Shown: positions 332 to 6,040 of the stretch, piece after piece
Layout: the number at the start of each line of letters is the position of its first letter
How positions within the stretch are numbered: the stretch's first letter is position 1
DNA from: Candidatus Dormiibacterota bacterium
Lineage (GTDB): Bacteria; Chloroflexota; Dormibacteria; Aeolococcales; Aeolococcaceae
DNA length: 32,150 bases
NCBI GenBank assembly: GCA_003132525.1
Contig: PKXZ01000084.1
Span: forward strand, 1 to 32,150
Direction: 5' to 3'
Translations under genes and position numbers: made by a program
Notes under the pieces: generated by a model
The model's database searches: none
Seen by the model: only the letters and a program-made list of their open reading frames with translations
What the model was told of the DNA's origin: nothing

Positions 332-721
332 TCAGGCGCGAATCTTCCCGCGCAGCCGCTCCACTGCCTCGGCCAGATCCCACACGGTCTCGAGCGCGAT
401 GGTGAGCTCACTCGCTGTCGGGGGGAGTTCGTAGACCCTGTGATGGCAGGCGCTGGAAAGCGATCGCCAGGTCAGCATCGTGCGGCCCCCGAGCTCGCGG
501 TCGTTGAGCATGTCGCCGACGCAGAGCAGCTGACAGCGCGTCGAGGTCCTCTCCAGCCCGGGAGCCGTCACCTCCCAAAGGCGCGCCATGGCGAGCTCCA
601 GTCCTTGTCGCGCGAGCAACGCCGCCGCACGTGGCCAGAGGCCGGCCGTGGTTGCGTCATCATCGCGGATGAGGTCACGCGCGGCCGAGACCAGCGCGTG
701 CGCGTCCGTGGTCGTGGTCAT
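332..721 (-). CDS. small HEPN-like protein (about 129 aa), probable partner of the upstream ATPase
   Basis: ORF 332..817 with likely start at MTTTTDAHALV, 7 nt after the ATPase stop; helical protein with R-x6-H (WRSLSSACHHRVYELPPTASEL) resembling a HEPN-type motif. Confidence 0.65.
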   Translation of the reverse strand: MTTTTDAHALVSAARDLIRDDDATTAGLWPRAAALLARQGLELAMARLWEVTAPGLERTSTRCQLLCVGDMLNDRELGGRTMLTWRSLSSACHHRVYELPPTASELTIALETVWDLAEAVERLRGKIRA

Positions 722-728
722 CGCGACA

Positions 729-3161
729 TCAACGCTCGAGCATCTTCTTGGAGAGCTGCTCGACACCGCGGATGAAGTCGCGCGCGTCACCGTACAGCTT
801 GCCGCTGTGCGTTCCACGGTTGCATTCCTTGACTGCTTCGACGGCCCAGGGATACTGCTTCTGCAGGAATCCGGTGACGTCGCCGCCTCGCTCGGGATCG
901 TTGAGCAGCGCCAGCGCCAGCCACATGTTCAGCGTCGTCGGCTTCGCCAGCACGTCCTGCACCTCCGAGTATGTCCTGCCCTGATGAAGCAGGCGTCGCG
1001 TCGTTGCGAGTGATGCGGCAGCCTCGAGCGCCAGTCTGCAGAAACCGGGGATGACACGAAGCGCCTCCACAGGAACGTCGCGTGTCATCGCGACCGCAAA
1101 CGCATCGTCGATGTAGCGCTGCACGGGATCCTGGATGCGTCGCAACTCCACGATGGACTGCTCACGGCGGACCACCTCGATGACGGTGGCCCCGATGTCG
1201 AGCGCGTTCATGGCATCCCCGAGACGCGTGTCGTGCGTGAGCACGATGACCTGGCGATCCTTCGCGGCCCGAGCGAGCACGGTCGCGAGCCCCGCCACTT
1301 TCGCCGGATCCATCGCCTGCACCGGGTCGTCGATCACGACAAATCGGAACGGCGACTCGGGCATCGAAGCTCGCGGCAGGAACAGCGACAGGGCGAGGCA
1401 GTTGAGCTCGCCTTGGCTCATGACTCCGAGCGCGGATCCGTCCTCGCCGTCAACCTTCACGTCGAGCGCGAGGCGCCGCTGGTTCGATGCGCCGAGCAAT
1501 CGCAGCTCGCCGAGCGAGACGTTGCTGTCCTGGCGCAGCTCGGTCCAGTTCTCCTGCACGGCGCCGGCGATGGGACGGAAGCGTTCATCGCGGAGCTCAT
1601 CGTGCGCGTCCTTGAGCCACCGTTCTGCTTCCTTGATCCGGACGGCCTCGCGCTCGGCCTTCTGCGCCCTGCGTCCCAGCGGCAGCCACAAGGCGATCGC
1701 GTCCGCGGCGGGCCGCCATGCTCGCTCCAGCCGCTCGAGCTCGGCCGCTGCTGCCCGGCGCAGGTCGGCGACCGCGGCGATGAGTGGTGGCCCGTGGGTT
1801 TCGAGGTGCGTGGCCAGCGAGATTGCGTCATCATCGGCAGCAACCTCGGCCCACCGTTCCCAGAGGTCGACCACCGGTGCGATGTCGATGCCGGCGCCGG
1901 CACCGTCACGGAGCGCGACGGGCGTTGCCGTCACGAGCTGCCGGGCCTGGCGCATCGCGTCACCCAGCATGTCGCGAGCCTTGCGTACGGCCTCGGCGTC
2001 CGCTCGGAGCCGGACAACCTCGTCGCGTGCCTGGATCCGCCACTGGTAGGTCAGCACGCCTTCGGTCCCGCAGACCGGGCAGCGTTCCCCCTCGGCATGT
2101 GCGTGCACGTCGAGTGCCTGCTGGAGCAGCGACGTAACCTCGTGCGCTTTCCCCGCATCCGTGCCGCGAAGCCGGTCGGCAGCCGCATGCGCTTCACGCA
2201 GTTCGGTCGTTGTCCCGTTGAGCCGCTCGCGATCCAGCACCGGCAGACCTGCCAGGTCGCGCAGCTTGCGTAGCACACTGCGCTCGTCGCTCTGCGCGTC
2301 GCCGCCAACCGCGCTCGCGACGAGATCGAGATCCCAGGTTTTCGACGCGAGCACCGCACGTACCATGGCCGCGCGCTCGTCAGAAGTGCGGTCGAGAAGT
2401 CCGCGCAGGGACGGGAGTGTGTCGCGCGCTTCCTTGGCATCGTGCTCACGGCTCAGACGCGCCTTCTGCAGCTCCTGCTGCGCCGCGGCAAGGTCACCCA
2501 GTCCAAGGATGGCCGCGAGTGCGTCGTACAGCTTCGATTGCTCGCGGTCGAGCGCGTGCTCGAGCTCGTTGTGCGAGAGCAGCGGCGGGTATCCTGCGAG
2601 CTGCGCCGCCCACCCGAGCGCGGCCGGCGACGCGGCCTTTCCGTCCACCGTCAGCGTCGAGCCGTCGACGCCGTCGCCTTCCTTCCACACACGGGCGACA
2701 TCGAGCGGCTGCTTGCGCCCATCGACGGTGAACCGCGCAGCCACTCGCGTGTGCCGGTGATGCAGGTTCTGCCATCCGTCGCGCCAGACCTTGACGCGTT
2801 GCTCCCAGCGCTGATTCGTGCCCAGCAACACCATTTCAAGGGCTTCAGAGAAGGACGATTTCCCAGAGCCGTTGCGGCCGACGACCAGCGTGAGCCCGGG
2901 TCCAGGATCGATGTTCAACATGGTCGGTGGACCGATGCCGCGGAAGCCCTCGACCATGATGGCGGCGAGGTACACGGCTGACGGAGGCTTGACCGAGCCC
3001 TGCGCGACAGAGGTCGACGCCACGGAGGATGCGCCCTGGAGCGCTGCGTCAACGGCGTCGGGACCTTGAAATGCCGCGAGGATCAGATCGGACGCTCCGT
3101 CCGCTGGGGCATGCGTCTCGAGCCGATCGACCACGAGGCCGAGCAGGGCGGCGTCAGCCAT
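729..3161 (-). CDS. Rad50/SMC-like AAA ATPase with zinc hook and about 150-aa C-terminal extension
   Basis: Walker A GRNGSGKSS, CPVC hook, SQGEL signature-like motif, Walker B FRFVVIDDPVQAMD, H-loop IVLTHDTRL. Confidence 0.9.
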   Translation of the reverse strand: MADAALLGLVVDRLETHAPADGASDLILAAFQGPDAVDAALQGASSVASTSVAQGSVKPPSAVYLAAIMVEGFRGIGPPTMLNIDPGPGLTLVVGRNGSGKSSFSEALEMVLLGTNQRWEQRVKVWRDGWQNLHHRHTRVAARFTVDGRKQPLDVARVWKEGDGVDGSTLTVDGKAASPAALGWAAQLAGYPPLLSHNELEHALDREQSKLYDALAAILGLGDLAAAQQELQKARLSREHDAKEARDTLPSLRGLLDRTSDERAAMVRAVLASKTWDLDLVASAVGGDAQSDERSVLRKLRDLAGLPVLDRERLNGTTTELREAHAAADRLRGTDAGKAHEVTSLLQQALDVHAHAEGERCPVCGTEGVLTYQWRIQARDEVVRLRADAEAVRKARDMLGDAMRQARQLVTATPVALRDGAGAGIDIAPVVDLWERWAEVAADDDAISLATHLETHGPPLIAAVADLRRAAAAELERLERAWRPAADAIALWLPLGRRAQKAEREAVRIKEAERWLKDAHDELRDERFRPIAGAVQENWTELRQDSNVSLGELRLLGASNQRRLALDVKVDGEDGSALGVMSQGELNCLALSLFLPRASMPESPFRFVVIDDPVQAMDPAKVAGLATVLARAAKDRQVIVLTHDTRLGDAMNALDIGATVIEVVRREQSIVELRRIQDPVQRYIDDAFAVAMTRDVPVEALRVIPGFCRLALEAAASLATTRRLLHQGRTYSEVQDVLAKPTTLNMWLALALLNDPERGGDVTGFLQKQYPWAVEAVKECNRGTHSGKLYGDARDFIRGVEQLSKKMLER

Positions 3162-3660
3162 CGGGGCCGGCTGGCGTGGTGGTGACGCGCTTGAGAACGA
3201 TCTCGTCCGGCGTCCGCCCGTGGTCGACGAAGTACGTGGCCCGCCGACCGTCCTTCTCGAGGTGGACGAGCGAGCCGACCTTGAACGTGTCGGCGGGCAT
3301 GGTCAAGGGCGGCGTGCTCCCGGATGGGCGTGGGAGAGGTGGCGAGGCGACCGGCGCTGCAGGCATCGCCAGCGGCGCTGGAGCAAGGGCAGGCGCGCTC
3401 ACGGCCGGATGCGTGCGGTGGACGTGCTGTCGATGCACGGTGATGCCGACTGCGATCGCCGTGAGTACGAGCACGGGAACGCTGATGTACCAGTAGGCGA
3501 TACCGAGAGCAAGGATCACCGCCAGGACGACGAAGCCGACGCACCCAATGCCGCCGGTCGCGTGTGCAGCCTGGCGGACAGCGCGGTGTGGCTGGCGCGC
3601 GTATGTCGAAACGCCTCCCCAGAAACCTCCTGGCAGGCGGTGGCCGAGATAGAAACGCAC
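3154..3660 (-). CDS. small membrane protein with C-terminal soluble domain
   Basis: GTG start at 3660; hydrophobic segment GCVGFVVLAVILALGIAYWYISVPVLVLTAIAVGI; 3' end overlaps the ATPase start by 8 nt. Confidence 0.7.
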   Translation of the reverse strand: MRFYLGHRLPGGFWGGVSTYARQPHRAVRQAAHATGGIGCVGFVVLAVILALGIAYWYISVPVLVLTAIAVGITVHRQHVHRTHPAVSAPALAPAPLAMPAAPVASPPLPRPSGSTPPLTMPADTFKVGSLVHLEKDGRRATYFVDHGRTPDEIVLKRVTTTPAGPDG

Positions 3661-3719: not shown

Positions 3720-4334
3720 GTGGCGGTGCCAGAACGGACTCAGACTGCGCCGCCGCTGACGGGGCGGTTCGCCTCGGGGTTCGCCCTGGCATGGGCGGTC
3801 CACGGCACTCAGATGCGCAAGAAGACCGGCATCCCTTACATGGCCCATGTCATGACGGTGTGCGCACTCGCCCTCGAGAACGGCGCCGACGAGGATGTCG
3901 CCATCGCGGCGCTGCTCCATGACGCAGTCGAGGACTCCGAGGACGGCGAGGTCACCCACCGCCTGATCGAGGACCAGTTCGGCGAACGGGTGGCGCGGAT
4001 CGTGATGGCCTGCAGCGATGCGGTCGCCGTCCCCGGCCGGCCCAAGCCCGAGTGGCGGGAGCGGAAGGAAACCTACCTCCGTCACCTCGAGGCCGACGCC
4101 GACACCGACGTGCTGCTCGTCTCAGCGTGCGACAAGCTTCACAACACGAGGTCGATCCTCACCGATCTGCGCACCGAGGGCGACGTCGTCTGGCAGCGAT
4201 TCACCGTCCCGGATCCCGCAGCCCAGCTCTGGTACTACACGAGCGTGCTGGAGATCCTCGAGCGCCGCCTGCCGGGCCCCCTGACCGACGAGCTCGCCTC
4301 CACGGTCAAGGAGATCGCCGCACTCGTCCGCTGA
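3720..4334 (+). CDS. HD-domain phosphohydrolase, MESH1/SpoT-hydrolase-like (possible small alarmone hydrolase)
   Basis: IPYMAHVM ... ALLHDAVEDSEDGEVT ... ACDKLHNTRSIL pattern; GTG start at 3720 chosen within ORF 3564..4334 (exact start uncertain; GTG 3726 possible). Confidence 0.8.
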   Translation: MAVPERTQTAPPLTGRFASGFALAWAVHGTQMRKKTGIPYMAHVMTVCALALENGADEDVAIAALLHDAVEDSEDGEVTHRLIEDQFGERVARIVMACSDAVAVPGRPKPEWRERKETYLRHLEADADTDVLLVSACDKLHNTRSILTDLRTEGDVVWQRFTVPDPAAQLWYYTSVLEILERRLPGPLTDELASTVKEIAALVR

Positions 4335-4352: not shown

Positions 4353-5168
4353 TCAGATCGAGTCGAGGATGCGCTTGCGCTGGGCCGCGTACTCGTCGTC
4401 GTTGAGCACGCCCTGCTCCTTGAGCGCTTCGAGCTCCTGGAGGCGGCCCGACGCATCGTCCGGGGCCTGCTGCGTCCCCGGCAGGCCCGTTACGGCATCT
4501 CGGGCGAGGATCGCTTCGGCTGACATCGGCGGCGGTGCGGCGCCGGGAAGTGCGAAGCCGGGGCCGCCCGACACCGCAGTCGAACCCCCGATCTGCATCG
4601 CGGCCGAACCCGGGGGTACATTCGCCGGAACCGCATAGCCGTGACTGCGTAAGAGGTCAAGCGTCGCGTCGCGCGCGGCGGCGGGATTGGCACTGTTCTC
4701 CTGGCGCACCTTGAGCAACTGCGCGACCAGGTCTGAGCTCGCACCAGGTCCCATCATCGCGGCAGGTGGGGAAGCGATCGACCCGCTCGACAGCGACCCC
4801 AGCGTCAGCCCCGGTGCGCCGGTGGTGCCATAGGCGCGGCTCATGTTCGTGAACGAGTTCTGGCCGAATTGCGCGCGCCACTGCTGCACACGGGCGTGGG
4901 TGCGCGCAGCACCCATCAGGATGAATCCTCCGATCGACACCCAGATGCCCGCGAAGAGTCCGACGAAGCCGAGGTCATCCGCGGGCGGGCATGGCGGCCC
5001 CGAGCAGAAGCCGTCCGAGTTGCAGCCGCAGTTGCCGTTGGAGATCAGCACCGTCAAGCCATAGATGAAGGCGATGATCCCGCCAACACCAAGCAGCAGC
5101 CCAATCCAGGTCAGCACGCCCTTGACCACGCCGGCCGTCCCTCCGAAACCCCAGTGCCTTGCGGCCAT
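4353..5168 (-). CDS. membrane protein with C-terminal SHOCT domain
   Basis: two TM segments, Cys-rich loop NGNCGCNSDGFCSGPPCPP, C-terminal LQELEALKEQGVLNDDEYAAQRKRILDSI typical of SHOCT; start at MAARHWGF. Confidence 0.8.
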   Translation of the reverse strand: MAARHWGFGGTAGVVKGVLTWIGLLLGVGGIIAFIYGLTVLISNGNCGCNSDGFCSGPPCPPADDLGFVGLFAGIWVSIGGFILMGAARTHARVQQWRAQFGQNSFTNMSRAYGTTGAPGLTLGSLSSGSIASPPAAMMGPGASSDLVAQLLKVRQENSANPAAARDATLDLLRSHGYAVPANVPPGSAAMQIGGSTAVSGGPGFALPGAAPPPMSAEAILARDAVTGLPGTQQAPDDASGRLQELEALKEQGVLNDDEYAAQRKRILDSI

Positions 5169-5180
5169 CGCCGCGGCGCA

Positions 5181-5186
5181 TATGAT
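5181..5186 (+). promoter_or_regulatory. putative -10 element TATGAT for the SDR gene (near-leaderless)
   Basis: TATGAT 8 nt upstream of ATG 5195, no Shine-Dalgarno. Confidence 0.45.
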
Positions 5187-5194
5187 GCGCGCCG

Positions 5195-6040
5195 ATGAGC
5201 GCCCAACGTCCACTCGACGGCCGTGTGGCGGTGGTGACCGGATCGAGCCGGGGGATCGGCCGCGCCATGGTGCTCCGCCTCGCCCGTGAGGGCGCGTCGG
5301 TGGTGGTCACCGGCAAGTCGGAGACCGGCACCGAGAAGCTGCCGGGAAGCATCCACACCGTCGCCGAGGAGGTCGAGGCCGCCGGCGGATCGGCGCTCGC
5401 GGTTCGCGTCGACGTGCGTCACGAGGACGATGTCAAGGCGATGGTCGACGCCACCATCGAGCGCTTCGGCCGGCTCGACATCCTCATCAACAATGCGGGA
5501 GCGCTCTGGTGGCAGCCGGTGCTCGAAACGCCGCCCAAACGCTATGACCTCATGTGGGAGATCAACGTTCGCGCCGCGTTTCTCTGCGCCTACTACGCAC
5601 TGCCGCACATGGTGGCGAACCACTGGGGGCACGTCATCAACTGCTCGCCGCCCATCACCACAACGCCGAGCCCGGGGCACGTCGCCTACATGACGACCAA
5701 GATGGGAATGACCCGGCTCGCCATCGGCATCGCCGCCGAGCACGCGGACGACGGCATCGCCGGCAACTCACTCTGGCCCGTCACCATCATCGAGAGTCTC
5801 GCGAGCATCAACTGGGGGCTCGGCGATCGCAGCCAGTGGCGGTCGCCGGAGATCCTCTGCGACGCGATGATGGAGATCGTCAGCACCGAGCCGCCCACCC
5901 TCACCGGGCAGCAGATCCTCGACGAACCGTTCCTCCGCGAGCGCGGCTGGACCGATGAGCGCCTCGACGCGTACTGGCTCGAGGGCAAGCCTCCGGAGCA
6001 CCCGGTGTACATCGACGGGCGGTCGGGCTCCGCGATGTAG
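5195..6040 (+). CDS. short-chain dehydrogenase/reductase (SDR), HSDL2-like
   Basis: VVTGSSRGIGRAM, LINNAGALWW, YMTTKMGMT (YxxxK). Confidence 0.9.
   Translation: MSAQRPLDGRVAVVTGSSRGIGRAMVLRLAREGASVVVTGKSETGTEKLPGSIHTVAEEVEAAGGSALAVRVDVRHEDDVKAMVDATIERFGRLDILINNAGALWWQPVLETPPKRYDLMWEINVRAAFLCAYYALPHMVANHWGHVINCSPPITTTPSPGHVAYMTTKMGMTRLAIGIAAEHADDGIAGNSLWPVTIIESLASINWGLGDRSQWRSPEILCDAMMEIVSTEPPTLTGQQILDEPFLRERGWTDERLDAYWLEGKPPEHPVYIDGRSGSAM

Follow-up and report, generated by a model that had tools for sequence, protein, structure and literature searches.

The window analysed here is a stretch of 32,150 nucleotides (contig PKXZ01000084.1 of assembly GCA_003132525.1, from a Candidatus Dormiibacterota bacterium), and the element under study is a set of neighbouring genes on its minus strand. 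The largest of the open reading frames (ORFs), at 729..3161, was recognised from its Pfam matches as a Rad50/SMC-like ABC ATPase of 810 amino acids with a zinc hook and a C-terminal HEPN-like domain. It is followed by a gene for a small HEPN-like partner of 129 amino acids (332..721, with the ATG at 721), assigned from its AlphaFold2 model, Foldseek matches and pairing, and preceded by an ORF for a membrane-type protein with two transmembrane segments (3154..3660), whose homologues are confined to genus g1 loci L004-L009. An initial annotation had proposed that the three form one defence or toxin cassette. Their layout was borne out: all lie on the same strand, the membrane and ATPase ORFs overlap by 8 nucleotides (3154-3161), and a gap of 7 nucleotides (722-728) separates the ATPase from the small ORF. 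Codon comparison within the genus indicates purifying selection on all three, with ratios of nonsynonymous to synonymous substitution rates (dN/dS) of about 0.08-0.15 (0.10-0.15 for the membrane ORF).

A wide scan of 84,980 species genomes returned 326 candidate ATPase loci, and the best 80 of the 326 were fetched and examined. These loci span Dormibacterota, Actinomycetota, Acidobacteriota, Chloroflexota and Myxococcota, together with one metagenome-assembled genome labelled Bacillota. The small gene was found immediately downstream of the ATPase in all of them (80/80, at least five phyla); the pairing on which the initial proposal depended is thus strict, and it recurs far beyond chance. Reverse searches starting from the small protein found the ATPase upstream in 12/12 cases in the window's phylum (400 genomes) and in about 20/21 in Actinomycetota (397 genomes), where the exception (L143) is a marginal match. 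The stop and start codons of the pair lie within 20 nucleotides of each other in 66 of 73 loci, with an ATGA overlap in 45. Pairwise distances of the two proteins co-vary (Mantel r 0.87, with 0 of 999 permutations as high), part of this correlation being due to shared ancestry. Among 60 relatives, every genome of the genus (7/7) has the ATPase, which is otherwise sporadic in the family, and the small gene is adjacent to it at every complete locus. From the strict pairing in both directions, the stop/start overlap and the co-variation we therefore conclude that the core unit is a two-gene operon of the ATPase and the small gene. A second ATPase fragment, 43% identical, lies at G000:C97:1-1400 (L002), where it is truncated at the contig end and abuts a prolyl-oligopeptidase-like start. 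It was not used, the contig being probably chimeric or a contaminant.

The best Pfam match of the ATPase is SMC_N (E 3.4e-18), followed by AAA_21 (E 5.6e-13) and AAA_13 (E 1.2e-7, below the cut-off); other Rad50/SMC matches are weak. The Walker A, CPVC hook, Walker B and H-loop elements that had been read from the sequence of this gene are all present and nearly all invariant across 78 homologues. Walker A (GRNGSGKSS, residues 95-103, 2853..2879, minus strand, as are all features below unless stated) is invariant or nearly so. Both cysteines of the zinc hook CPVC (residues 361-364, 2070..2081) are kept in 78/78, as is the ABC signature-type motif MSQGE (residues 581-585, 1407..1421). The Walker B/D-loop segment FVVIDDPVQAMD (residues 607-618, 1308..1343), which contains VVIDDPVQAMD, has D611, D612, M617 and D618 in 78/78, and the switch histidine of the H-loop, His643 in LTHD (1233..1235), is equally invariant. 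With Walker A and B, the signature and the switch histidine in place, the protein has the Rad50-like ABC ATPase core of the RloC/PrrC class, and with its CPVC cysteines inside a long insert it also has the CX2C zinc hook of RloC. In one homologous locus (L033:7047-10445) the ATPase frame is extended N-terminally by about 280 codons, which may represent a fused domain or a frame that is open by chance.

The AlphaFold2 model of the small protein is a five-helix bundle with a mean predicted local distance difference test score (pLDDT) of 90.3. Ranked by template modelling score (TM-score) and probability, its top Foldseek matches in the PDB include the HEPN proteins 2hsb (AF_0298), 1wol, 1ufb and sacsin 3o10, and also 2q00. 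TM-scores range from 0.4 to 0.6, and the HEPN matches have probabilities of 0.99-1.00 (2hsb: TM 0.60/0.61, probability 0.99). The predicted fold is likely, but not certainly, HEPN-like, in agreement with what had been supposed of this short helical protein. The motif that had been proposed for it was not upheld. RSLSSACHH, read as R-x6-H, and the following YELPPTASEL are present, and H93 is invariant, but R86 is variable in the family (mostly S, H, A, N or Q), which rules out R-x6-H as the catalytic motif. The canonical HEPN motif R-x4-6-H is also absent, there being no conserved arginine 4-6 residues ahead of H93 in the 81 small-protein sequences. The set that is conserved is R31 (81/81) with R38-x3-E42-x49-51-H93, read as RREH or RRDH in 79/81. 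In the window Arg38 (79/81) is encoded at 608..610, Glu42 (Glu in 78/81, Asp in 3/81) at 596..598 and His93 (81/81) at 443..445. No Pfam or NCBIfam family matches the small protein above cut-off, and no PADLOC model matches it, LmuA and LmuC included. A search of its profile against the sequences of solved structures gave chance-level matches only, and the viral Foldseek search gave only non-significant ones.

The ATPase core ends at about residue 655, and beyond it lies a second region with an R-x3-E...H arrangement, which the initial annotation had overlooked. This C-terminal HEPN-like domain (about residues 680-810, 732..1124), defined by conservation and its AlphaFold2 model (pLDDT 88.9), carries R709-x3-E713-x71-H785. 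The triad is whole in 76/78 homologues, with an E-to-H spacing of 69-75 across the family. In the two models the main helices follow the same order, the R and E lie on the long second helix, and the histidine ends the helix preceding the last one. An unconstrained profile-profile alignment of the small protein with this domain matches the R, E and H of the one to those of the other (P about 0.003-0.02). HEPN toxins are among its Foldseek matches but are not significant, and the domain taken alone has no match to a PADLOC model. On the similar helix order and the R-x3-E...H arrangement, the module therefore probably has two HEPN domains, one in the ATPase C-terminus and one in the small protein. 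Two loci depart from the usual structure of this region. At L129 the ATPase frame stops within the domain (after ...FCRAALEAAGC), with the small gene intact behind it, which could mean that the domain has been lost naturally or that the assembly is at fault. The copy on a Streptomyces anthocyanicus plasmid (L117:11899-14776) has its ATPase annotated in two parts ahead of the small gene; the second ORF, of 73 amino acids, contains the end of the domain, and the division may be a frameshift or a true split.

The genomic surroundings of the pair were surveyed through 93 nearest neighbours in 47 loci; some of the loci are closely related, so the counts are not independent. GmrSD restriction enzymes account for 6/93, against a background of about two GmrSD per genome (25 such genomes). 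Other recurrent neighbours are ResIII, SWI2/SNF2, HsdR, N6-methylase (N6-MTase), UvrD and PIN proteins. Actinomycetota copies are surrounded by restriction genes, and two copies on Streptomyces plasmids have type I restriction or methyltransferase genes nearby, along with TPR or NB-ARC proteins and a UvrD-like helicase. The Dormibacterota genus differs in that its pair sits in a stable neighbourhood. None of the phage records carries the ATPase, and the 25 PADLOC families that occur most often in the flanking genes include no Lamassu model.

We put the probability at roughly 55% that the module is a two-component RloC-like toxin/defence system, acting as an abortive-infection RNase. RloC and PrrC, the classic tRNA-cutting phage defences, each consist of one polypeptide; the module would most likely be an RloC-type tRNA cutter that gained a partner subunit. 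Part of what the initial annotation had drawn from the locus, an RloC-like ATPase acting with a HEPN partner, is retained here: the zinc-hook ATPase, the strict pairing, the HEPN-like model and the restriction-gene context all agree with it. Its simple division into a sensor and a separate effector was not, since the ATPase C-terminus holds an R-x3-E...H domain of its own. In the mechanism suggested by RloC, the Rad50-like ATPase would dimerise through its heads and zinc hook and sense DNA damage or invading DNA, while its C-terminal HEPN-like domain and the separate HEPN-like subunit would be held together in an inactive state. A change in the ATP, DNA or zinc state would release metal-independent RNase activity, most likely on tRNA, and cutting of tRNA would halt translation and abort the infection. 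The physical complex, nuclease activity, tRNA target, trigger and phage defence are all inferred. Because HEPN RNases act as dimers and two HEPN-like domains come from the two genes, the simplest assembly would be a composite HEPN site to which the small protein and the C-terminal domain of the ATPase both contribute. More tentatively, and as a possibility to which we give less than even odds, the pair may be an ABC-HEPN defence system not described before. Its nuclease would be a heterodimer of the ATPase C-terminal domain and the small subunit, which has an R-x3-E...H of its own, and neither gene would be active alone.

Several observations weigh against the two-component RloC-like reading. 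In the window's genus all 7 genomes carry the pair, and its flanks are conserved, an unusual pattern for a defence system that moves between genomes. Foldseek E-values for the small protein are 0.13 or worse and thus not significant, because of which its fold is rated likely rather than certain, and the C-terminal domain of the ATPase gave weak matches (TM-score no higher than 0.46, probability no higher than 0.57). The E-to-H spacing of 69-75 in that domain exceeds the 36-52 of RloC. The ATPase scores 31.3 bits against AAA_13 (PF13166), for which the cut-off is 36, and its PADLOC match to PDC-S06 reaches 54 bits, compared with 881 bits for an RloC-type control (L120). As its top PADLOC match is moreover LmuB, the ATPase, by these sequence comparisons, is RloC-like in build but lies outside the RloC family as presently modelled. 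The main uncertainty concerns whether RNases with the predicted folds and conserved triads would be active, and which part the small protein would play: co-nuclease, sole effector or inhibitor.

The last of these roles corresponds to a toxin-antitoxin variant, in which the C-terminal HEPN-like domain would be the toxin and the small protein a blocking pseudo-dimer partner that confers immunity or silences it. The small adjacent gene, the obligate pairing and the stop-start overlap speak for such a system, and the HEPN-like similarity suggests that the small protein could fill the dimer interface. However, R38, E42 and H93 are kept with very few exceptions across at least five phyla, which would be needless for a pure decoy, and the small gene lies downstream of the ATPase, whereas antitoxins often lie upstream. 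We consider this variant unlikely. It is distinctly improbable that the ATPase serves only as sensor and scaffold, as in Septu, PARIS and Lamassu, with the small protein as sole effector and the C-terminal R-x3-E...H as a structural element, given that R709, E713 and H785 are as well conserved (76/78) as the triad of the small protein. Such a role would fit the strongest PADLOC match, to LmuB (75 bits), the others to Mad3, HEC-01A and AriA, and the motif spacing of the small protein, which is closer to that of RloC than the spacing in the ATPase C-terminus. The frame at L129 that ends inside the C-terminal domain, with the small gene intact, would fit it too, but may be an assembly error.

We regard as very doubtful a Rad50/SbcC-like complex for DNA maintenance, with the small protein as structural or nuclease accessory and neither RNA target nor defence role. 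SMC_N as best Pfam match, the weak Rad50/SMC matches and the universal, syntenic presence in the window's genus are in its favour. Carriage is nevertheless sparse (12/400 genomes of the window's phylum, 21/397 of Actinomycetota), plasmid copies exist, restriction genes are neighbours, and the RNase-type R-x3-E...H set occurs in both the ATPase C-terminus and the partner. That partner is a 129-residue helical protein and not a phosphoesterase of the SbcD/Mre11 type, the nuclease partner in SbcCD and Mre11-Rad50, and no match to a known DNA-repair operon, which would have contradicted the initial proposal, was found. A cassette of three genes, with the membrane protein as anchor or regulator of the complex, is very improbable indeed, as the 8-nucleotide overlap and the purifying selection on the membrane gene within the genus are outweighed by the lack of any homologue of this ORF at relatives' loci outside the genus and of any such recurrent upstream cluster in the wider locus set.

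The membrane ORF is a real gene and a genus-restricted neighbour, confined to this Dormibacterota genus, and was ruled out as a core component. The same confinement, among the 60 relatives, applies to an HD-domain gene and a SHOCT gene upstream. The former (3720-4334, plus strand) is divergent to the cassette, syntenic in the genus, and encodes a small protein like the hydrolase part of RelA/SpoT (HD_4, E 8e-21); the latter (4353-5213, minus strand) encodes a membrane-type protein with a SHOCT-like C-terminal end (E 3e-5, below cut-off). Just downstream of the small gene, the start of a further gene lies at the contig edge (1-83, minus strand), and its remainder is probably found at G000:C61:12955-13779. 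In relatives (L024:10965-12236, plus strand; L010; L030) it encodes a 424-residue protein without a Pfam match, with a possible PD-(D/E)XK-like core (GDFLI...VAVEAKSG) as judged by eye. Within the genus 4 of 7 genomes carry it; a different genus (G009) has it on the opposite side of the ATPase.

If the RloC-like reading is true, the pair would be a widespread split form of these defences, and the switch could lie in the very assembly of the nuclease. Hundreds of pairs of an "AAA family ATPase" and a "hypothetical protein" would then also have a likely function, in Streptomyces, Nocardia, Pseudonocardia, soil Dormibacterota, Acidobacteriota and others. A two-gene pair of ABC ATPase and HEPN protein of this kind is undescribed in the open-access literature searched, which is weak evidence of novelty.

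Among known systems, Septu (PtuA/PtuB) and PARIS (AriA/AriB) follow a two-gene logic of an ABC-type ATPase and a smaller nuclease, but their effector is HNH or TOPRIM and not HEPN-like, and no C-terminal R-x3-E...H domain is known in their ATPases. Lamassu shares the SMC-like ATPase core, and LmuB is the top PADLOC match of the ATPase at 75 bits, ahead of Mad3, HEC-01A and AriA (partial). However, the LmuB match stops near the end of the ATPase core, and where a Lamassu operon combines LmuB with an LmuA effector, with or without LmuC, the small protein here has no PADLOC match, be it to LmuA, LmuC or any other model. PrrC, an anticodon nuclease, likewise combines an ABC ATPase with a HEPN R-E-H triad (R320-E324-H356; PMC2610378). 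It is linked to a type I restriction-modification operon, however, and has no insert with a zinc hook; it is absent among the 25 PADLOC matches listed for the ATPase. The type IX retron-Kva2 offers another HEPN RNase outside the canonical motif: it lacks R-phi-xxx-H, its active site at a dimer interface draws on distant His and Arg residues, and it causes tRNA depletion (PMC13405049). It differs in that its HEPN protein forms a homodimer and its sensor is reverse transcriptase with multicopy single-stranded DNA (RT-msDNA) rather than a Rad50-like ATPase.

The closest likeness is to RloC, a zinc-hook anticodon nuclease (Davidov & Kaufmann 2008). This Rad50-like protein of 804 amino acids has a CX2C hook and carries the motif Arg-x3-Glu-x36-52-His; replacing triad residues by alanine inactivates it, whereas a mutation in the hook makes it hyperactive (PMC2610378). 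The ATPase described here is also about 800 amino acids long and Rad50-like, with a CX2C hook, a C-terminal R-x3-E...H and some links to restriction genes, and the E-to-H spacing of 49-51 in the small protein fits the range of RloC. Single RloC-type C-termini could not be aligned globally with the profile of the C-terminal domain. One RloC-type protein (L122) aligned to the ATPase reaches into this domain, with its R-x3-E on R709/E713. Seven AAA_13/RloC-type controls from the window's phylum and Actinomycetota have a C-x2-C hook at a like position and a C-terminal R-x3-E with a downstream His, and none of the seven has the small gene beside it. RloC and PrrC are self-sufficient single genes, whereas the ATPase always has the small gene downstream; compared with RloC, there is an obligate second HEPN-like protein.

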